DNA of 64,000 bases, from NCBI RefSeq assembly GCF_022024035.1, contig NZ_CP091787.1, positions 1,922,001-1,986,000 on the forward strand, read 5' to 3'. The DNA comes from Prevotella sp. E13-17. Its GTDB lineage: Bacteria; Bacteroidota; Bacteroidia; Bacteroidales; Bacteroidaceae. This document shows positions 6,092 to 34,010 of the stretch, in pieces. The translations under genes were made by a program, and so were the position numbers. Numbering within the stretch: position 1 is the first letter of the stretch; each line of letters opens with the position of its first letter. The notes beneath the pieces were generated by a model. It ran no database searches. It was not told the origin of the DNA and saw only the letters and a program-made list of their open reading frames with translations.

Positions 6092-8538
6092 TTCTTTTTA
6101 GACCTATACTCTTTTGGAGTCATCTTATATTCATGGAAGAAATTTCCAATGAAATAATTTGGAGTATAGAAGCCGCACTCCTTGGCTATATTCTCTATAG
6201 AGAAGTTGGTGGTTCGCAACAGGTTTGCTGCACGTTGCAGACGAAAGATGCGTGCAAGTTCTCGTGGATTCTTATAAAGCTCGCTCGACATCAACTCATA
6301 CAGTCGCACGACACTTACGTCACATAGCTGACTTAGCCTCTGCATCGTAAGCGAACGCTTGTCCTGCTGATGTACAAAAGGAGTGATCTTCAGCATGACA
6401 GCAATAAACTCTGGCGACAGTTTTGTGTTCGTATCACGCATATTAGCCATCAAATCATCCTGCGTAGGCATCAGTACTTCGGCAGAGAAAGAATCACATC
6501 GCTCAACAAATGAACAAATCTTTCTTATCATTTCACCTTCTGCATTGGCCCGACGCACACGCAAGCGAGTGTTTTTATTGTAGATGACGAAGTTAAAAAT
6601 CACCAGTGCAAAGACAATTATGCCAAGAAAGATATGTACCACCTGAGTCTGCCACCAAGGTTGACTGACGCGAATTTTCCACTTGAAGGGTTCACCCTCC
6701 CAAAGGTCTGGAAACATTGAAGCCTGAACTTCCAAAGTATAATCTCCTGGCTGCAATCCGAGAAGAGTCAGATGAAGCCGTCCCTGAATATCCACCTGCT
6801 GATGTTCGTCGTTATAAAAGAATGTCTGCCATTCACCTTGATGATCCAATCCGTGCACTCTGACACGGTAATAAGTCTGTAGTGGACGAAAATAGTTCAA
6901 CGCAGAGAAGGTCAGCGCCAGTGAGTTTTGATCACTGTTCAAATTAATTTCTGTGGCTCGTGTAAACGCCTGATCAATGACGACATTCCCGCCTATTACC
7001 TCTCCTGGCAAGACATTAGTCCCATTCACCTGTAGCCGTGTCATTTTCGGATAAAGCTTATGAGGCTTTCTGTCGTTGATAATCCCAAACGAGTCTGGGT
7101 GAAATGCAACTATATGATCCAGTCCCTCCATCAAAATGGTGCCATCATTCAGAGATATAGCTCGATTATTCTCGAAGGACTCTATAGGAATATAGTCGAG
7201 AGCCGTAAAGCTATTGATAAACACAGGCTCTTCATGGTCTATCATAATATAAGAGATACCGGCAGATGTCGATACCCAGATGTCATGGTTTTTATCTTCC
7301 ACAACAGCATGAATAACATTATTTGGAAGCCCATCTTGCTTGGTGAAAACGATTGGTTTCTCATTCTCTGAGCGATATAAATAAAGCCCACGCATGGTTC
7401 CCTGCCATCTCCATTCGCGACTATCCCGATATAAACAGTTTGCAGCAATACCCCGGAAATCTATGTTTGGCTGCGGTATCCGCTCAAGAATCTTACTATA
7501 ATCGGCACATTTCGGATGCTCTCTACGGTAAATATGGAAGGGAGACGCCATAGGACCAGAATAAAGGACGCCCCTTTTCTCTGTGCCTATCCACATACCA
7601 CCCTGGCGATCGAAAGACAGCATATTACAATCTGTTACCAACGGCGTACCATCCATCAAGGTAAATTCCTTGATATGTTCTACTTTTCTGGTAGCAATAT
7701 CATAAATCCAATAGCCATAAGTACTTGGTATGTAAAGTTTATCGTCCTTCAACGCGAAATTATTCAGACGATAAGGACATTCTGTCAAGGTTGTCCACTT
7801 CCTGTTCTTTACATCAAAATAGAGTAAGATGGAGCCCTGTTCACCTTGGCGTATTTGGAAGAAACCATTCTCATATCTGAGGAGTACAGACGTTTTCTTG
7901 TATTTACCGACGCAGTCAGCACCATAAGCTTTCTTACGAAACATCAACCGACCTGTTTTTATACTTTGCCCAACCACCTCGCCATCGTCAAAGAATGTCA
8001 GGAGTATGTTTCCAATGACATCCAAATCCTGAAGGTTTTTATTTGAGTAAAGACGATGGTATTTATTTTCATCTACAGAAAACAGCCCTTTGGCGGTGAC
8101 CATCCAAACCGATCCCAGTGTATCTACAAACAAGTCATTCACGGCATCTCTACAGCCCATCTCACGTATTACGCTGTCCACATTTTCCACAAAATGTTCC
8201 AGCATCATATCCACACAAGTCACCGTCCCTTGGTTTTTCAGCCAAACATGATGTCTGTTGTCAAAATATAACTGATAATAACCGTGATAAGCAGGCAACA
8301 AGTATTGATAATCTGGCCTAGTATCGATATGTGTAAAACTAACGCCATCAAAGAAATTCAAGTTGCCAAGGGTTGAAATAATCATTCGTCCCGTCTTGGT
8401 ACAGACAACAATCTGAGCACTATTGTCTGCCAAATCGTTAGCTGCATTCAGAAATTTAAATTGTCTATCCGTCTCCGCTGCATTCGCAAACAACGGGAAC
8501 ACAAGTATCAGAAATAAGTATAAGGTTCGCAGCTTCAT
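6088..8538 (-). CDS. Membrane AraC-family regulator with sensor propeller and Y_Y_Y domain
   Basis: An 816-residue one-piece sensor-regulator. It has a signal peptide or anchor (MKLRTLYLFLILVFPLFANA), an N-terminal propeller-like sensor region, a Y_Y_Y domain at about 545-610 (YYRVRVHGLDHQGEWQTFF), one membrane helix at about 640-662 (FLGIIVFALVIFNFVIY), then an AraC-type HTH at about 730-812 (IENIAKECGFYTPNYFIGNF). Hybrid two-component systems of Bacteroidetes share the sensor half but carry kinase and receiver domains, which are absent here. The start at 8538 is set by a -7 box at 8560-8567; a longer frame to 8589 would begin upstream of the promoter. The target genes are not evident. Confidence 0.85.
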   Translation of the reverse strand: MKLRTLYLFLILVFPLFANAAETDRQFKFLNAANDLADNSAQIVVCTKTGRMIISTLGNLNFFDGVSFTHIDTRPDYQYLLPAYHGYYQLYFDNRHHVWLKNQGTVTCVDMMLEHFVENVDSVIREMGCRDAVNDLFVDTLGSVWMVTAKGLFSVDENKYHRLYSNKNLQDLDVIGNILLTFFDDGEVVGQSIKTGRLMFRKKAYGADCVGKYKKTSVLLRYENGFFQIRQGEQGSILLYFDVKNRKWTTLTECPYRLNNFALKDDKLYIPSTYGYWIYDIATRKVEHIKEFTLMDGTPLVTDCNMLSFDRQGGMWIGTEKRGVLYSGPMASPFHIYRREHPKCADYSKILERIPQPNIDFRGIAANCLYRDSREWRWQGTMRGLYLYRSENEKPIVFTKQDGLPNNVIHAVVEDKNHDIWVSTSAGISYIMIDHEEPVFINSFTALDYIPIESFENNRAISLNDGTILMEGLDHIVAFHPDSFGIINDRKPHKLYPKMTRLQVNGTNVLPGEVIGGNVVIDQAFTRATEINLNSDQNSLALTFSALNYFRPLQTYYRVRVHGLDHQGEWQTFFYNDEHQQVDIQGRLHLTLLGLQPGDYTLEVQASMFPDLWEGEPFKWKIRVSQPWWQTQVVHIFLGIIVFALVIFNFVIYNKNTRLRVRRANAEGEMIRKICSFVERCDSFSAEVLMPTQDDLMANMRDTNTKLSPEFIAVMLKITPFVHQQDKRSLTMQRLSQLCDVSVVRLYELMSSELYKNPRELARIFRLQRAANLLRTTNFSIENIAKECGFYTPNYFIGNFFHEYKMTPKEYRSKKN

Positions 8539-11710: not shown

Positions 11711-11977
11711 AGAGTTTAGAACAACCTTTTCTGAGCTCTAAAAGGAGACGTTTTAAAGTATAGAAGAGGCGTTTCTAAAGTATAGAACCAAAGCGATTGT
11801 TCCTGTTTTAGCCCCTGGACGCCCTACTTTTAGCCCCTGAATGAACCGTTTTTAGGGGCTGGATCGACCCTATCCAGGGGCTATACACACCACTTTCAGG
11901 GGCTGGACGGACATCAAAAGTAAAGCAATAACAACGCAAGAGTGAAACAATAACATGACGAAAGTAAAACCATGACA
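11711..11977. repeat. 22-bp-period degenerate repeat array (array 1)
   Basis: A non-coding array between convergent units (nitroreductase and tRNA-Lys). Unit cores recur every 22 bp. TTTAGAA/TATAGAA-type cores start at 11715, 11737, 11759 and 11781. After a 4-bp phase shift, AGCCCCTG cores start at 11810 and 11832, AGGGGCT cores (their inverse) at 11854, 11876 and 11898, and GTAAAGCAATAAC-type cores at 11920, 11942 and 11964. Sequence between cores is not conserved. It is not a CRISPR: units differ and spacers are only about 8-12 bp. Function unknown; the counterpart is at 30977-31165. Confidence 0.8.
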
Positions 11978-12037
11978 ATACTAAATCGCTCCAATCGTCA
12001 CGAAGACACACAGCCTTTTTGATTCTCTATTATAACA

Positions 12038-12068: not shown

Positions 12069-12073
12069 CTCTG

Positions 12074-12146
12074 TACACCCGCAGGGGTTCGAACCCTGGA
12101 CACCCTGATTAAGAGTCAGGTGCTCTACCAACTGAGCTACGGGTGC
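12074..12146 (-). tRNA. tRNA-Lys (anticodon CTT), copy 2
   Basis: A 73-nt cloverleaf: anticodon stem CCTGA/TCAGG with loop CTCTTAA, T arm CAGGGTTCGAACCCCTG. It is identical to the copy at 12174-12246, exactly 100 bp away. Confidence 0.97.
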
Positions 12147-12173
12147 ATAACTTAAACGTTTTCCTATCGGTTG

Positions 12174-12246
12174 TACACCCGCAGGGGTTCGAACCCTGGA
12201 CACCCTGATTAAGAGTCAGGTGCTCTACCAACTGAGCTACGGGTGC
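12174..12246 (-). tRNA. tRNA-Lys (anticodon CTT), copy 1
   Basis: Same sequence as the tRNA at 12074-12146, a recent tandem duplication. Both share the promoter at 12269-12300 and the terminator at 12038-12068. Confidence 0.97.
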
Positions 12247-27142: not shown

Positions 27143-29980
27143 ATGGAAGATCATAATAAGATTCAAGTATTCGGGGCACGCGTACACAACCTGAAGAATA
27201 TTGATGTAGAAATACCACGCAACTCGTTGACCGTTATTACGGGACTATCGGGATCAGGAAAATCTTCACTTGCTTTTGATACGATATTCGCAGAGGGTCA
27301 ACGACGCTACATCGAGACGTTTTCTGCCTATGCACGTAACTTCTTGGGAGGTATGGAACGTCCCGATGTTGACAAAATTACAGGATTGTCGCCCGTCATT
27401 AGCATAGAACAAAAGACAACCAACAAGAACCCACGTTCTACGGTAGGCACGACAACAGAGATTTACGACTATATGCGCCTGCTATTTGCCCGTGCTGGCA
27501 AGGCTTATAGTTACAAGACGGGCGAGCCTATGGTGAAATATACAGAAGAGAAAGTTCTGGAGATGATTCTGAATGATTATGCCGGAAAACGTATCTTTAT
27601 TCTCGCTCCACTTGTTCGCTCAAGAAAAGGACATTATCGTGAGCTCTTTGAAACCATGCGTCGCAAGGGATACCTAACCATGCGTGTTGATGGCGAGATT
27701 GTTGAGATAAAACTTGGCATGAAGGTAGATCGCTACAAGAACCACGACATTGAAGTCGTCATTGACAAGATGGCTCTTCCACAGACACCTACAGAAGGAG
27801 GTTCGGATGAACGATTAAGAAAGTCGGTAGCCTTAGCCATGAAACAAGGTGAAGGTCTGATCATGATACTCGATAAAGATTCTGGAAACGTGAAATACTT
27901 CTCAAAAAGACTCATGTGTCCCACAACGGGTATATCTTATAGCGATCCTGCTCCCAACAATTTCTCATTCAACTCGCCGCAAGGGGCATGTCCTCAATGC
28001 AAGGGACTTGGAAAAATCAATGAGATAGACTTAGCAAAAGTCATCCCCGACCAAATGGTGAGCATATACAATGGGGGGATCGTTCCTTTAGGAAAATACA
28101 AGAACCAATTGATATTCTGGCAAATAGACGCAATACTAAAGAAATATGACTGCGACATCAAGATGTCAATCAAGGATATACCCGAAGAAGCAATGAACGA
28201 GTTACTATATGGTTCGCTTGACGATGTTCGCATTGACAAGGATGTGGTCCGTACTTCAAGTGATTATTTCGTTCGTTTCGATGGTATTATTAAATATCTC
28301 CGCGACATAATGGATAGCGACGAGTCTGCAAGCGCACAGAAATGGGCCGACCAGTTCATGGCAGAATGCGAATGCCCCGAATGTCATGGTCAACGATTGA
28401 ACCGCGAGGCTCTTTCCTATAAGATTTGGGACAAGAACATCAGCGAGCTTTCGTCGATGGACATCAGCGAACTACGTCAATGGATTGACGATGTTGAAAC
28501 GCATTTAGACAGTCAACAGAAGCAAATTGCAGCTGAGATTCTAAAGGAAATACGTACGCGTTTAGACTTCTTGTTGGAAGTGGGTCTCGACTATTTGGCT
28601 TTGAATCGTCAGTCAGCATCATTGTCTGGTGGAGAAAGCCAGCGCATTCGTCTGGCGACACAGATAGGTTCTCAGTTAGTAAACGTACTGTATATTCTTG
28701 ATGAACCCTCAATTGGTTTGCACCAACGTGATAACGAACGACTCATCAACTCTTTGAAAGAACTGCGCGATTTGGGCAATACGGTTATCGTCGTAGAACA
28801 TGATAAAGACATGATGATGGCAGCAGACTATGTGATTGACATCGGTCCACGTGCAGGACGAAAAGGTGGTGAGGTGGTTTTCCAAGGTACTCCTGACGAG
28901 ATGATGAAGACAAACACCATCACCGCACAGTATCTTAGCGGAAAACTTCAATGTAGTGAAATAACAGAAAGAAGGAAAGGGTTGGGTAAAAACCTCGTTA
29001 TTCGTGGTTGTACAGGCAACAACTTGAAGCATGTTGATGTTACGTTCCCGTTGGGAAAACTAATTGTGGTGACAGGAGTCAGCGGTTCTGGCAAATCTAC
29101 ACTTATCAACGAGACCCTTCAGCCCATACTCTCGCAGCATTTCTACCACTCGTTAAAGAAACCTATGCCTTATGATTCTATTGAGGGCATCGAATATATA
29201 GATAAGGTGGTCAATGTGGATCAATCGCCTTTGGGACGCACACCGCGTTCAAATCCTGCCACATATACTGGAGTGTTCTCCGACATTCGCTCGTTGTTTG
29301 TAAACCTGCCCGAGGCGAAAATTCGCGGTTATAAGCCAGGACGCTTTTCGTTCAATGTTAAAGGCGGACGTTGCGAGACCTGCGGTGGCAACGGTTACAA
29401 GACCATTGAGATGAACTTCCTGCCAGATATTCAGGTTCCATGCGAGGTGTGTCACGGGAAAAGATATAATCGAGAAACATTGGAGGTACGTTATAAAGGT
29501 AAATCTATTGCCGACATACTTGACATGACCATCAACCAAGCGGTGGAGTTTTTCGAGAATGTGCCAGATATTCTACGTAAGATTAAAACTATTCAAGACG
29601 TGGGATTGGGCTACATTAAACTGGGACAGCCATCCACTACCCTCTCTGGCGGTGAAAGTCAACGCGTAAAATTGGCCACCGAGTTGTCGAAGAAAGACAC
29701 CGGAAAGACACTCTACATACTGGATGAACCGACCACCGGTCTTCATTTTGAAGACATACGCATTCTGATGCAGGTCATCCATAAATTGGTGGATCGTGGT
29801 AATACGGTTGTTATCATCGAGCACAACCTGGATGTTATCAAACAGGCCGACTACATTATTGATATGGGACCAGAAGGTGGACGTAAAGGCGGCACTTTAC
29901 TTTGCGAGGGTACGCCCGAGGATGTTGCCAAAAGCAAGAAAGGCTTTACGCCTATTTTCCTGAAACAAGAGTTGCAATAG
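27143..29980 (+). CDS. uvrA: Excinuclease ABC subunit A
   Basis: A 945-residue nucleotide excision repair ATPase. It has two ABC modules: Walker [10 protein letters not shown] (34-42) and GVSGSGKST, signatures [13 protein letters not shown] and [13 protein letters not shown], and Walker [12 protein letters not shown] and [14 protein letters not shown]. The zinc-binding Cys pairs are seen ([28 protein letters not shown]). Full normal length. The CDF gene begins 5 bp after its stop. Confidence 0.98.
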
Positions 29981-29985
29981 GACAT

Positions 29986-30867
29986 ATGGAAAGAAGTAAG
30001 GAAATCTATAGAGTCACACTCATCGGAAGCGCTGTCAATGTTCTGCTACTGCTATTCAAGTTTATAGCAGGCATCTTGGGACATAGTGCAGCTATGATAG
30101 CCGATGCTGTACATTCTCTATCCGACTTTCTTACCGATATCATCGTTCTTATTTTCGTCAGAATCAGCTGCCTACCTCAAGACAAGTCGCATGATTATGG
30201 GCACGGTAAATACGAGACATTGGCGATGACGATAATAGGAATTGCTTTGCTAATGGTGGCAGCTGGCATCATGTATAGTGGTGTTACCAAGATTATAGCG
30301 TGGGCCAATGGGGCGTGCCTGAAAGCTCCTGGACTGCTAGCGCTTTGGGCAGCACTTATTTCTATCATTTTGAAGGAAGCCGTTTACCAATATTCCATGA
30401 TAAAAGCAAGAAAACTGCAATCACAAGCAGTAGAAGCCAACGCGTGGCATCATCGCAGCGATGCTCTATCATCGATTGGAACAGCCATCGGTATCGGGGG
30501 AGCTATATACTTAGGACAAGAATGGACGGTATTAGATCCTCTGGCTTCTGTCATCGTTGGCGCGTTTATCTTGAAAATATCTATTGAGTTGTTACGTGAT
30601 AGCATCGGTGACCTGATGGAGCATTCTCTTCCAGATTCCGTAGAAAACGAAATTATACAACTGGCAGAATCTATTCCTGGTGTATCTTCTCCTCATGATT
30701 TGCGAACGCGACGCATAGGAAATCACTATGCCATTGAGTTTCATATTCTTATGGATGGAGATATGCCTCTGCGCAAAGCTCACAATAAAGCTTCGGAAGT
30801 AGAAGAGTTACTACGCAATCGCTATGGACAAGAAACTCACATAGCGGTGCACGTTGAACCCAAATAA
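29986..30867 (+). CDS. Cation diffusion facilitator family transporter
   Basis: A 293-residue inner-membrane efflux protein for divalent metals (Zn, Fe or Mn; not resolved). It has six helices with metal motifs AMIADAVHSLSDFLTD and WHHRSDALSSIG (the family HxxxD pattern) and a cytosolic C-terminal domain (HDLRTRRIGNHYAIEFHIL). The ATG at 29986 lies 5 bp after uvrA; a longer frame would sit inside uvrA. Confidence 0.93.
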   Translation: MERSKEIYRVTLIGSAVNVLLLLFKFIAGILGHSAAMIADAVHSLSDFLTDIIVLIFVRISCLPQDKSHDYGHGKYETLAMTIIGIALLMVAAGIMYSGVTKIIAWANGACLKAPGLLALWAALISIILKEAVYQYSMIKARKLQSQAVEANAWHHRSDALSSIGTAIGIGGAIYLGQEWTVLDPLASVIVGAFILKISIELLRDSIGDLMEHSLPDSVENEIIQLAESIPGVSSPHDLRTRRIGNHYAIEFHILMDGDMPLRKAHNKASEVEELLRNRYGQETHIAVHVEPK

Positions 30868-30976
30868 CGATTGTATTCCCCTTCAATTTAAGCTGAACAG
30901 TCGCCCAATTCTAGCCGTCTTGCAGGCTTAAAGAAGAGCCTTCTGAAACCAAGACTAGAACTCTTGCTTTAGCTCT

Positions 30977-31165
30977 AGACTTTAGATAACATATTTCTAG
31001 ACTCTAGAACGAATAGATCCAGACTCTAGAACGAGAACTTCCAGACTCTGGAATACGCAATTCTAGAGTCTGGAAGCTAACCAATAGTGCCAGTTTTACG
31101 CGATTAAACAATAACTATTGAACATCAATCACAATGCTTTTGCAATGCAAAACCAATGCTATTAA
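30977..31165. repeat. 22-bp-period degenerate repeat array (array 2)
   Basis: A non-coding array in the convergent gap between the CDF and GH2 genes. Cores related to AGACTCTAGAACGA start at 30977, 30999, 31021, 31043 and 31065 (exactly 22 bp apart). An unrelated sequence fills the 31087 slot. CAATAAC or CAATGCT cores start at 31109, 31132 and 31154 (23 and 22 bp). Several cores are near-palindromic (CTAGACTCTAG, CCAGACTCTGG). The layout parallels array 1 at 11711-11977: a TAGA-type block, then a CAATAAC-type block. Confidence 0.8.
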
Positions 31166-31247: not shown

Positions 31248-31304
31248 ATGGCCGATGGCCGATGGTCAATAGTCAATGTCCAATGGTCAATAATCAACGA
31301 CCAA
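31248..31304. repeat. Heptamer tandem repeat, consensus ATGGTCA
   Basis: Nine 7-bp units in phase, the last cut short: ATGGCCG twice, then ATGGTCA, ATAGTCA, ATGTCCA, ATGGTCA, ATAATCA, ACGACCA, AT. The tract ends at the stop codon of the GH2 gene. Confidence 0.8.
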
Positions 31305-33704
31305 TCACTCTTTTGTTGAAAGCTTAAGCACAACAGGTTTCATACCTGCAGCCTGCGCTTTAAGTGTAATAACACCAGCCTCGAGAGTTGAACGAAGTAT
31401 AACGGTACAAGAGCCATTGAACAGACGACGATGATTGTCAACATGTAGTTCATCTGAGTTGATGTCACCATTAACAACACCTACTATCTGCGCATTTCCA
31501 TCTACTGTAAAAGTCACATCTTCATTTGTTGTCTGCACGAGGCGACCTTTTGCGTCAAGAGCAGTAATACGAATATGTTGCAGATCTATGCCATCGGCCT
31601 TCCAGTTGTTATTATCCGATTCAGCCTTTAGTCTAACAGGAGCTTTTGTCGTTTCTATCTGGTGTCGAGCAACAATTTTTCCTTTAGTACGGGCAATGGC
31701 TTCCAACTTACCAGGCTGATAAACAATATCGTTCCAACGAATTTGGTTACGCATCTTGGCATTCTTTACATCATTTTTCTTCACGCCAAGACTCTTACCG
31801 TTCAAAAGCAGTTCTACCTCATCGGCATTGGTATAAGTTAACAGCGAAAGATGTTGTCCTGCAATACGGTTCCAGTGGTCGCTCATACCATCATTACCCG
31901 TCTGCACACCATTCCACATCTGATCACCTTTTTTCTCTATCACTCCGATATGAACCACAGGCTCGTCAGGACAGAAGAAACTCTTCATGTAGTAAGCCTT
32001 GGGTTTGGGATTCAGCTCCAAATCGAAAACGCCCTGGCTCCATCCTTTGGCAGGCCACCCCTGACTCTCGCCTAAATAGTCAATGGCGCCCCAATAGGCC
32101 AAACCTATAACTTTTTCAAGATCCATCTCGAAGTAGTTCTGTCCCATAGCAGAGACAGATGCCTCACTTTGATAAAACTTCATCCAAGGAAAGCGACGTC
32201 CGTCGCCTGGGAAATACATATACCTATAATTATATGCCTGAACGTCGGTCTTCATGGCCAGGTCACAAGGTAGAGAATCTGTCGCCCAGTTGCGATAGCG
32301 GGGATGCATAGCTACAGTCACAAGACGAGTACTATCGTAGCGCAGCACCAATGTCTTCATCAGTTGATACATGGTGACACCAAAATCATTAAAGGGCTGA
32401 TTTGGATCCTGCTGAAGCTCATTGCCAAGGCTCCACAGCACCACACTGGGCGAATTACGATCTCGTTTCACCCATTCTGGCACGTCATTTTGCCATAATT
32501 CTTCGAAAGCCACACGTCCACCGGTATGCTGCTGCGTCCACTTGTCGTAGAGTTCATCAACAACAAGAATACCGTATTTGTCACATAATTCTATAAACTC
32601 ACGGCTGTAGGGATTGTGCGATGTACGGATATGATTAATGCCAAACTGCTTCATCAACTGGATTCGCTTCTCAATAGCACGTGGATATGCTGCTGCACCA
32701 AGTGCACCAAGTGTGTGGTGATTGGCATAACCCTTAAGCAAAACCTTCTTACCATTCAGCTTCAAACCATGATCAGACGTAATTTCGATGGTGCGGAATC
32801 CGAAATGTTCGTTATAGGAATCAACAATATCACCATTTGAATTGTGCAGAACAACCTCTACGGTGTAAAGATTTGGATGTTCACAATCCCACAATTTGGC
32901 ATTATCAATCTCTACCTCTGCCACTTTTTGTTCGATGGTTCGCGATGGCGTATTGCGCCTAATCTCTGTTTTATTACTATACACACAATCACCTTGAGGA
33001 TCCTTTATTACAATGTCAACAGGAAGCACTTTATCCTTTCCCATAAACGAAGCTTCTGCATAGACGGCTACATAGCGATTGTATTGCGTTACAATTCTCA
33101 ACGGATTACGCCGCAAAAAAGCCTCTTTGGCGGTACTAATCAAACGCACGTCGCGGAACAAGCCTCCACCTGTGTACCACCGCGAATTAAAAGGATCGCG
33201 CGTATCGGCTTTGACTGCCAACACATTGTCTTGACCGAACTTCAACTTATCGGTGATGTCAAGTTCGAAACCTACATAGCCATAATTGGTACCACCAATA
33301 TATTCACCATTCAAATACACATCGCCTACATACATGATACCTCCAAAATCAAGAAGCAACCTGCGATTCTTCAACGAGTCGTCTGGCGTCAGATGATAGC
33401 GATACCAAGCCTTCCCCATTTCTTTAAACCCACGACTTGAAAGCCGACTCTTGATGTTAGCCGCAGGATCGTCGTTGTTGGCCTTCTCATCGGCCGACGG
33501 AGCCACCCACGGTTGTTCAATCTGGAAATCATGGGGTATGTTGACCACGCGCCAGTCACTATCATCAAACTGCAAAGAAGATGCATTGGGGACATCGCCA
33601 GGCATGAAGCGCCAACCGAAATTAAGACTAATCATCGCACGCGGTTGCGCTGTTAAAGTAAGCGCATAACAGAAAACAGCAAAACAGAAAAAAAGATTTC
33701 TCAT
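31305..33704 (-). CDS. Glycoside hydrolase family 2 (beta-galactosidase-like)
   Basis: A 799-residue secreted or periplasmic glycosidase: signal peptide (MRNLFFCFAVFCYALTLTA), sugar-binding domain (LNFGWRFMPGD; WRVVNIPHD), immunoglobulin-like domain, TIM barrel, and C-terminal beta domains of the DUF4982 type. The acid/base glutamate is in VVLWSLGNELQQ (about 428) and the nucleophile in YQSEASVSAM (about 513). It acts on a beta-galactoside or related plant or host glycan; specificity is not readable. No SusCD genes are adjacent. The -7 box is at 33741-33748. Confidence 0.92.
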   Translation of the reverse strand: MRNLFFCFAVFCYALTLTAQPRAMISLNFGWRFMPGDVPNASSLQFDDSDWRVVNIPHDFQIEQPWVAPSADEKANNDDPAANIKSRLSSRGFKEMGKAWYRYHLTPDDSLKNRRLLLDFGGIMYVGDVYLNGEYIGGTNYGYVGFELDITDKLKFGQDNVLAVKADTRDPFNSRWYTGGGLFRDVRLISTAKEAFLRRNPLRIVTQYNRYVAVYAEASFMGKDKVLPVDIVIKDPQGDCVYSNKTEIRRNTPSRTIEQKVAEVEIDNAKLWDCEHPNLYTVEVVLHNSNGDIVDSYNEHFGFRTIEITSDHGLKLNGKKVLLKGYANHHTLGALGAAAYPRAIEKRIQLMKQFGINHIRTSHNPYSREFIELCDKYGILVVDELYDKWTQQHTGGRVAFEELWQNDVPEWVKRDRNSPSVVLWSLGNELQQDPNQPFNDFGVTMYQLMKTLVLRYDSTRLVTVAMHPRYRNWATDSLPCDLAMKTDVQAYNYRYMYFPGDGRRFPWMKFYQSEASVSAMGQNYFEMDLEKVIGLAYWGAIDYLGESQGWPAKGWSQGVFDLELNPKPKAYYMKSFFCPDEPVVHIGVIEKKGDQMWNGVQTGNDGMSDHWNRIAGQHLSLLTYTNADEVELLLNGKSLGVKKNDVKNAKMRNQIRWNDIVYQPGKLEAIARTKGKIVARHQIETTKAPVRLKAESDNNNWKADGIDLQHIRITALDAKGRLVQTTNEDVTFTVDGNAQIVGVVNGDINSDELHVDNHRRLFNGSCTVILRSTLEAGVITLKAQAAGMKPVVLKLSTKE

Positions 33705-33802: not shown

Positions 33803-34010
33803 CCAGAAAAAAGACATCGGGGCCGTATTGGTTCGATCGGGATACTCATCAAATAACATTGAAACTCGGGATGTCTTCTCTTGTCAATGGCGGGCCATTA
33901 ACCAAGCTTTCTTCGAAATGCCGATGGATTACAAAGACGGAGAGCGCCCTTATCTTTTAACAAAGGAGTTTTCATCACATCACCCTTACGGCCCCCTTTT
34001 ATAATTACAG
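33803..34010 (+). ncRNA. Structured leader upstream of riboflavin synthase, unidentified
   Basis: A long transcribed leader. Its outer ends pair perfectly: GGGGCCGTA (33819-33827) with TACGGCCCC (33987-33995). Inside lie an AATGG-CGGG-CCATT hairpin near 33886-33899 and competing pairs, because CATCGG near 33815 can pair with CCGATG near 33921 while AGACATC can pair with GATGTCT near 33872. The position suits a cis-regulator of riboflavin synthesis, but the FMN-riboswitch consensus is not present. It may instead be an independent RNA. Confidence 0.4.

Follow-up and report, generated by a model that had tools for sequence, protein, structure and literature searches.

Palindromes at a 22-bp pitch between genes of Prevotella sp. 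E13-17 and its relatives: possible rows of dimer-binding sites within MITE-like elements

Introduction

In the genome of Prevotella sp. E13-17, a row of short and similar DNA units lies between a gene for a cation efflux transporter and a convergent gene for a glycoside hydrolase. The question raised by this locus is what kind of element the row represents, and whether it stands alone. The DNA analysed, here called the window, is a stretch of 64,000 bp of contig NZ_CP091787.1 (positions 1,922,001 to 1,986,000); it contains two such rows, referred to below as arrays 1 and 2, array 2 being the one at issue. The original prediction, made from the letters alone, was of a maintained element in convergent gaps, perhaps a bidirectional transcription barrier or a site for a nucleoid protein. 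Our best reading, which we hold tentatively and rate as slightly short of probable, is that the arrays are rows of sites for a dimeric protein, set in helical phase and borne by MITE-like elements; the protein and the function are what we infer in it.

The array and its neighbours

The features of the two arrays and of the genes on either side of array 2 are collected in Table 1. Block A1 of array 2 has its dyad centres at 30980, 31002, 31024, 31046 and 31068, a pitch of 22 bp. The units start with AGACTTTAGAT at 30977, AGACTCTAGAA at 30999 and 31021, AGACTCTGGAA at 31043 and AGAGTCTGGAA at 31065, so that the five cores, exactly 22 bp apart, are where they had been placed. Each unit is a dyad, as in TTCTAG-ACT-CTAGAA, the first having one mismatch (TTAG for CTRR); in a column-permutation test array 2 gives p 0.037, and array 1 fails with p 0.59. 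The top 66-bp self-match of the window is that at lag 22 and position 30970 (48/66), other lags reaching at most 35 when lags 15-40 are scanned. At a threshold of 40/66 the window contains two lag-22 arrays, which are arrays 1 and 2. The CAATAAC and CAATGCT motifs were also correctly located (31109, and 31132 and 31154, respectively), in a block that is weaker than A1 and follows it with steps of 44 bp (from A1), 23 and 22 bp, the first internal step therefore being 23 bp.

Table 1. Positions of the array blocks and adjacent genes in the window.
Feature	Position	Strand	Remarks
Array 1, block A1: two TTYTAAAGTATAGAA units	11750..11788	+	22-bp register; centres 11758 and 11780 (by eye)
Array 1, block A2: five AGCCCCT/AGGGGCT dyads	11806..11908	+	
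Array 1, block B: AAGTAAAGCAATAACAACGC-type units	11917..11980	+	period ~22
Array 1, stretch aligned ungapped to the dispersed element	11737..11996	+	76% identity; G000:C1:1933737-1933996
Left neighbour of array 2: CDF-family cation efflux transporter	29902..30867	+	
Array 2, block A1: five dyad units TYYAG-NNN-CTRRA	30974..31074	+	lag-22 score 48/66
Array 2, B-like block: CAATAAC/CAATGCT, degenerate	31106..31160	+	steps 23 and 22
Right neighbour of array 2: glycoside hydrolase family 2, beta-galactosidase-like	31305..33704	-	convergent

In array 1 the A2 dyads are centred on 11813, 11835, 11857, 11879 and 11901, beginning 33 bp (3 x 11) after the last A1 centre at 11780. A verbatim sequence had been said to be shared by the two arrays, and AAACAATAAC is indeed common to both. 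The kinship of array 2 to other arrays resides mainly in its A1 block, at approximately 60-76% identity over 98-165 bp, mostly in alignments with small gaps. Ends of an element of its own were looked for around array 2 and not found, a MITE-like carrier being seen for other arrays only.

The gap that contains array 2 also holds a second type of repeat, a heptamer-like tandem of ATGGCCG / GTCAATA at 31248-31305, which can also be seen as a period of 21 and which sits between the array and the end of the glycoside hydrolase gene. Upstream of that gene, at 33821-33999, Rfam places Bacteroidales-1 RNA, a suggested 6S RNA (100.5 bits); no Rfam family reaches the gathering threshold at either window array. 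Directly to the right of array 1 are two tRNA-Lys(ctt) genes, at 12073-12146 and 12173-12246, which are identical by eye.

Two familiar identities were considered and set aside. The window arrays are not CRISPR arrays: the units vary, in E13-17 they are dyads of 13 bp separated by about 9 bp, and no CRISPR RNA family reaches the gathering score in the window. Nor do they match intrinsic terminators, which have a GC-rich hairpin followed by a run of T: no terminator-like site is flagged in the lag-22 part of either, and the minus strand of array 1 has one in block B.

The 22-bp period and its dialects

A shared design with diverged sequence, first proposed from the two window arrays, is borne out across the genome and recurs in other species: a pattern of two units with up to two mismatches has 99 matches on both strands of the 3.45-Mb E13-17 genome, against none for the reversed pattern. 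The period itself was surveyed in 20 samples of 20 kb from each of E13-17 (464 kb with the window), G016 and G024 (400 kb each) and in 80 loci of the CDF gene, by self-match at lags 13-60 with a threshold of 40/66 and a filter for low complexity. Arrays at lag 22 number 13 in E13-17, 18 in G016, nine in G024 and seven in the CDF loci; the harmonic lag of 44 gives seven, nine, seven and four, respectively, and every other lag between 13 and 60 gives between none and four. Extrapolation from the 400-kb E13-17 sample, which has 11 arrays, two of them copies of a close family, yields approximately 95 arrays per genome. Four more lag-22 arrays occur in fragments of 20 further genomes of the genus (236 kb). 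Fragments of 20 genomes from other families (259 kb) have one array at lag 22 and two at lag 23, and four other-family genomes (400 kb) have none at lag 22. At lag 23, the period of the BrickBuilt element discussed below, there is no array in E13-17, G016, G024, the CDF loci or the genus sample.

Two further repeats were observed in the course of this survey. One locus from a genome of another family (L233) has two arrays of 23-bp period, at 8210 and 9610, a period similar to that of BrickBuilt; and the G016 sample (L160-L179) has a separate repeat, with four arrays at lag 41, which is the unit length of PgRS.

The palindromes differ by eye between genomes while the pitch of 22 bp stays. In E13-17 they are TTCTAG-ACT-CTAGAA and TCCAG-CCC-CTGGA, and the same genome has other types of array as well, such as TGGTAGCCCGGCTACCA. 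G016 has palindromes like ACTTG-ACG-CAAGT, G024 has CGTTT...AAACG, G005 and G168 share ACCAAAGTCG-A-CGACTTTGGT, G012 has TGCTTTTAGC.GCTAAAAGCA and G157 has TCCTTTTAG-NNN-CTAAAAGGA. One CDF locus (L112) carries an array of GGTCCCA-CGG-TGGGACC directly downstream of the same CDF gene, and the pitch is also seen at L110, L122 and L134. Among 150 genomes of the genus, the core TTYYAGNNNCTRRAA is commonest in E13-17 (71 sites, with none for the reversed control), followed by G083 (34), G157 (29) and G012 (25); in two of the genomes, G168 (62) and G005 (35), the reversed control has many sites too. A genome of another genus in the same family, G230, has 70 core sites against three for the control, with 22-bp rows present. 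It should be noted that abundance of the core is no proof of arrays by itself, the listed G083 sites being mostly one dispersed palindrome without partners at 22 bp. At least two units 22 bp apart are found in six of the nine loci shown from relatives, and no 22-bp row in the other three (L283, L285 and L286). The pitch, abundance, dispersal and dialects of the arrays are well supported, and arrays of this period are a feature that spans the genus and at least one other genus.

Helical spacing and dyad symmetry

Of the 161 integer distances that separate dyad centres within the E13-17 arrays, 136 can be divided by 11. This figure is partly circular: lag 22 was the criterion by which the arrays were picked, and wherever a perfect 22-bp period holds one dyad, a second is implied 11 bp from it. 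Two tests of the lattice are free of this selection, one using single-unit sites found by pattern alone and the other all dyads with 6-bp arms in unselected sequence. The single-unit pattern has 71 sites in the E13-17 genome and none for its reversed control. Among the 54 of these 71 positions that were listed, every one of the 33 distances below 400 bp is a multiple of 11, even in 27 cases and odd in six, which is the helical phasing by which a cooperative protein-binding array would be recognized; the multiples include 55, 99 and 143 bp, and four of the six odd ones come from two near-duplicate arrays. For unselected dyads, 11 bp is the commonest spacing in E13-17 (7 against a mean of 0.72) and joint top in G024 (4 against 0.88); in G016 (6 against 0.81) it stands behind 41 and 82, which derive from another repeat. 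The CDF and genus loci give 4 against 1.35, and in the outgroups the spacing is not raised (1 against 1.63).

The hinge between blocks A1 and A2 measures 33 bp in at least seven E13-17 arrays, which may share descent and which include array 1 (11780 to 11813). In the other genus, 26 of the 34 listed distances in G230 lie on the 11-bp lattice and the other eight are all displaced by +1 across one 1-bp insertion; the listed distances on the lattice are six of seven in G157 and four of six in G005.

Dyads are clear in about half of the arrays: 24 of 51 pass the column-permutation test at p<0.05 and 27 fail, the passes being six of 13 in E13-17, ten of 18 in G016, two of nine in G024, six of seven in the CDF loci and none of four in the genus sample. 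Over 120 pooled A-type units, the pair at positions +-4 covaries (TA 50, CG 34; paired 0.70 against 0.50 expected, a value that none of 2000 permutations reached), the evidence for that at +-6 is marginal (p 0.049), and other pairs and shifted control pairs show no covariation. Covariation within arrays is not general, with 30 of 61 positive and 29 negative (Wilcoxon p 0.20; 18 of 23 in E13-17 and four of 18 in G016).

A constraint on the spacing of units is only suggested. Among the alignments listed, several divergent pairs of E13-17 arrays align ungapped over 187-302 bp at 63-74% identity (old pairs include 302 bp at 63%, 270 bp at 63%, 260 bp at 65% and 255 bp at 71%), and many other pairs have 1-10 gap openings. 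The suggestion goes no further because many pairs are gapped and because recent copies carry few indels anyway (229 unique substitutions against six unique indels).

The dispersed element

Many of the 99 two-unit matches fall in a dispersed, non-coding element of approximately 460 bp, of which the E13-17 genome has at least 34 close copies. A query with one copy finds at least 45 matches in this genome, namely 34 long ones at >=88% identity, five long ones at 71-76%, one fragment of 70 bp and five minor matches; the counts are lower bounds, 40 of 94 first-look candidates having been scored. Array 1 is one of the five divergent long copies. In a consensus built from 29 copies the left edge, GGCTCAGTTGCAATTGC, is sharp, and the right part fades, several copies having CTGCTGAGCCTCTACTGA there. 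Two of the 16 close copies shown (L005 and L010) have exactly one extra 22-bp unit. Among 60 relatives searched, E13-17 included, only G010 also matches the element, and then only in its outer 22-24 bp: the outer left end of four of the 16 close copies shown (GGCTCAGTAGAAATTTAGT) is the end of a G010 element that encodes an ISL3-family transposase. The ISL3-family IS of G010 (L136 and L137), of which the end GGCTCAGTAGAAATTTAGTG matches the outer end of some of the E13-17 elements, is a possible mobilising partner. Arrays in other genomes also lie inside larger dispersed repeats, flanks included: two stretches of G016, of 353 bp (87.5% identity) and 251 bp (86%), and two of G024, of 504 bp (84%) and 343 bp (81%, ungapped), are examples. 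A separate observation concerns two loci of the E13-17 genome approximately 23 kb apart (L253 and L254). Each is a long array of about 14 units that comprises blocks A1, A2 and B, and the two are near-duplicates.

A serious rival to our reading starts from these elements. The arrays might be a selfish minisatellite, in which case they would be passive tandem repeats inside MITE-like elements, like those of BrickBuilt, without host function; the period would come from an ancestral element and persist through the duplication of units and through selection for transposition alone. The dispersal of whole elements in three genomes (in E13-17 at 34 or more places at >=88% and at five more at 71-76%), the single extra units and the ISL3-like ends all argue for it, and we consider it a real possibility, albeit a rather doubtful one. 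Taken alone, it leaves unexplained why 22 bp is kept with unrelated palindromes in many species, why hinges are 33 bp and why dyads persist.

Genomic context and transcription

The arrays are strictly intergenic and dispersed, as BrickBuilt is: none of 52 is scored inside a gene, where genes were called by a simple script, inside means more than 60% overlap of the array core, and seven of the 52 have no called neighbour on one side. Of the 43 arrays that could be classified by gap, 26 are in tandem, ten in convergent and seven in divergent gaps, against approximately 26, eight and nine expected from intergenic length. Placement in convergent gaps, which had been regarded as characteristic, is correct for both window arrays as far as protein genes are concerned and is not a general property. 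The outcome named beforehand as counting against the prediction, arrays being equally frequent in genes or in divergent gaps, is observed for the divergent gaps and not for the genes. Position is not conserved either, with a lag-22 array within 600 bp downstream in one of 79 CDF orthologues (the best 80 of 586 confirmed loci, one of which was too short).

An RNA-level role, with the units forming tandem hairpins in the 3' untranslated part of transcripts and either stabilising these or ending transcription, draws support from the position of the arrays in tandem gaps, where 20 of 26 lie closer to the 3' end of the upstream gene (p 0.009; nine of ten in E13-17, eight of nine in G016, two of two in the genus sample, one of four in G024 and none of one in the CDF loci). 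The arrays are also predicted to fold strongly (mean z -4.3 in E13-17, -2.5 in G016 and -2.2 in G024), and a terminator-like site overlaps the array at 11 of 58 gene 3' ends. However, the fold excess differs little between the strands and almost vanishes in some G024 arrays, seven of the 43 arrays are in divergent gaps, and at 19 of the 58 ends a terminator-like site comes between the stop codon and the array; these site counts depend on scripted gene ends, include a few sites inside the element's own tail, and are to be seen against a background of 0.66 per kb and strand over the whole sequence. When 35 tandem-gap arrays are oriented by transcription, the G-T and A-C mismatches are equal (44 and 43), a count that supersedes an unoriented one of 53 and 42 at positions 2, 4, 5 and 6. 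The lack of a G-U bias fits sites that act at the level of DNA; helical phasing, moreover, is not needed for hairpins. The results on covariation, mismatches and folding fit DNA dyads better than selected RNA, and we judge the RNA-level explanation improbable.

The bidirectional barrier at convergent gene pairs that had been proposed is hardly credible as a general role, since arrays are not special to convergent gaps (ten against about eight by length, despite the placement of both window arrays, with most arrays in tandem gaps and some in divergent ones), terminator-like sites precede a third of them, mismatches show no wobble signature of RNA, and the actual right neighbours of array 1 are the two tRNA genes.

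The distribution along the chromosome gave one side observation. Among the sites listed, strict unit sites are absent from 1.357 to 1.953 Mb around the terminus as placed by skew (simulated P 0.03, post hoc), a gap reminiscent of that of nucleoid-occlusion sites. Avoidance of the terminus was rejected as a property of the arrays, as copies of the dispersed element and other types of array occur in the region.

Comparison with known systems

The nearest system in print is BrickBuilt of Porphyromonas gingivalis. According to the accessible parts of the report on it (PMC4596501), this is a MITE with 23-nt tandem repeats, present in 19 intergenic copies and having promoter activity in E. coli; it is confined to P. 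gingivalis and P. gulae, it has IS5-type ends, and its units are treated as direct repeats. Repeats of 41, 23 and 22 nt are also noted there for strain W83. Both systems are found in Bacteroidales, in intergenic dispersed elements with an internal tandem array of about two helix turns per unit and a variable number of units. BrickBuilt, as described there, has inverted ends related to an IS; the E13-17 family has the sharp left edge, the fading right part and, in four of the 16 copies shown, the ISL3-like outer end. Unlike the 23-nt BrickBuilt, the Prevotella arrays are of 22 bp, with dyad units, 33-bp hinges and many dialects over the genus and at least one other genus; identity with BrickBuilt is rejected, there being no array at lag 23 in the five sets named above. 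PgRS/MITE464 of P. gingivalis, named in the same accessible parts, is likewise a MITE with internal tandem repeats, but its unit is of 41 nt.

REP and BIME sequences resemble the arrays in being short intergenic palindromes of species-specific families that are sometimes clustered, at least as the accessible text of PMC3733652 presents them. By that account, however, REPs carry GTAG or CGTC tags and form pairs 20-100 bp apart, mostly head-head or tail-tail, without a fixed 22-bp lattice; no fixed tag of the GTAG/CGTC type is apparent by eye in the units listed here, so the arrays do not belong with REP/BIME so defined. We found no report of 22-bp palindrome arrays in Prevotella in the literature, mainly that which is openly accessible, and the accessible parts of PMC5771137, PMC3733652 and PMC10969869 hold nothing on Prevotella arrays.

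More distant comparisons are with well-known modular and phased sites. BOX elements of Streptococcus pneumoniae are modular intergenic repeats with a variable number of middle modules, of which the lengths and structure differ from those of the Prevotella arrays. Plasmid iterons and partition sites are phased protein sites on one face of the helix, at one or a few loci beside the cognate gene, in contrast to the approximately 95 loci extrapolated for E13-17. By analogy, the arrays may function as phased multi-site operators do and spread in the manner of MITEs.

Proposed explanation and its meaning

As helically phased rows of dimer-binding sites, the arrays might be explained as follows. Array 2 is one of some 95 (extrapolated) intergenic arrays in which palindromes follow a helical lattice of 11 bp, most often at intervals of 22 bp, and many of these are the internal part of MITE-like elements, as seen in the close family, in array 1 and in the repeats of two other genomes. 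Each palindrome would be the site for a putative dimeric DNA-binding protein; of the two roles first suggested, the nucleoid-protein site is the one in line with this reading. In a negatively supercoiled helix of about 11 bp per turn, the 22-bp pitch would put successive dimers on one face, giving a cooperative row. Between species the palindrome would have drifted or been replaced, presumably along with its protein, and the pitch kept. The likely use would be in the local organisation of the chromosome and its supercoils or in the control of neighbouring genes, or alternatively in the transposition of the element itself.

A wider proposal, which is speculative and which we think unlikely as it stands, is that the Prevotella group has a chromosome-organising system composed of a fast-evolving dimeric DNA-binding protein or protein family and about 100 intergenic arrays per genome on the 11-bp lattice, the palindrome and the protein co-evolving into a dialect of each species and MITE-like elements spreading the arrays.

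A fixed geometry with freely changing sequence is unusual, and it points to a constraint from the double helix itself. Such arrays can confuse the annotation of repeats, terminators and small RNAs. Even if they are selfish, they carry the idea of a minisatellite within a MITE past the one oral species, to an entire genus and further; and if they bind a protein, they would provide a handle on chromosome organisation and regulation in Bacteroidales that are abundant in the gut and the rumen.
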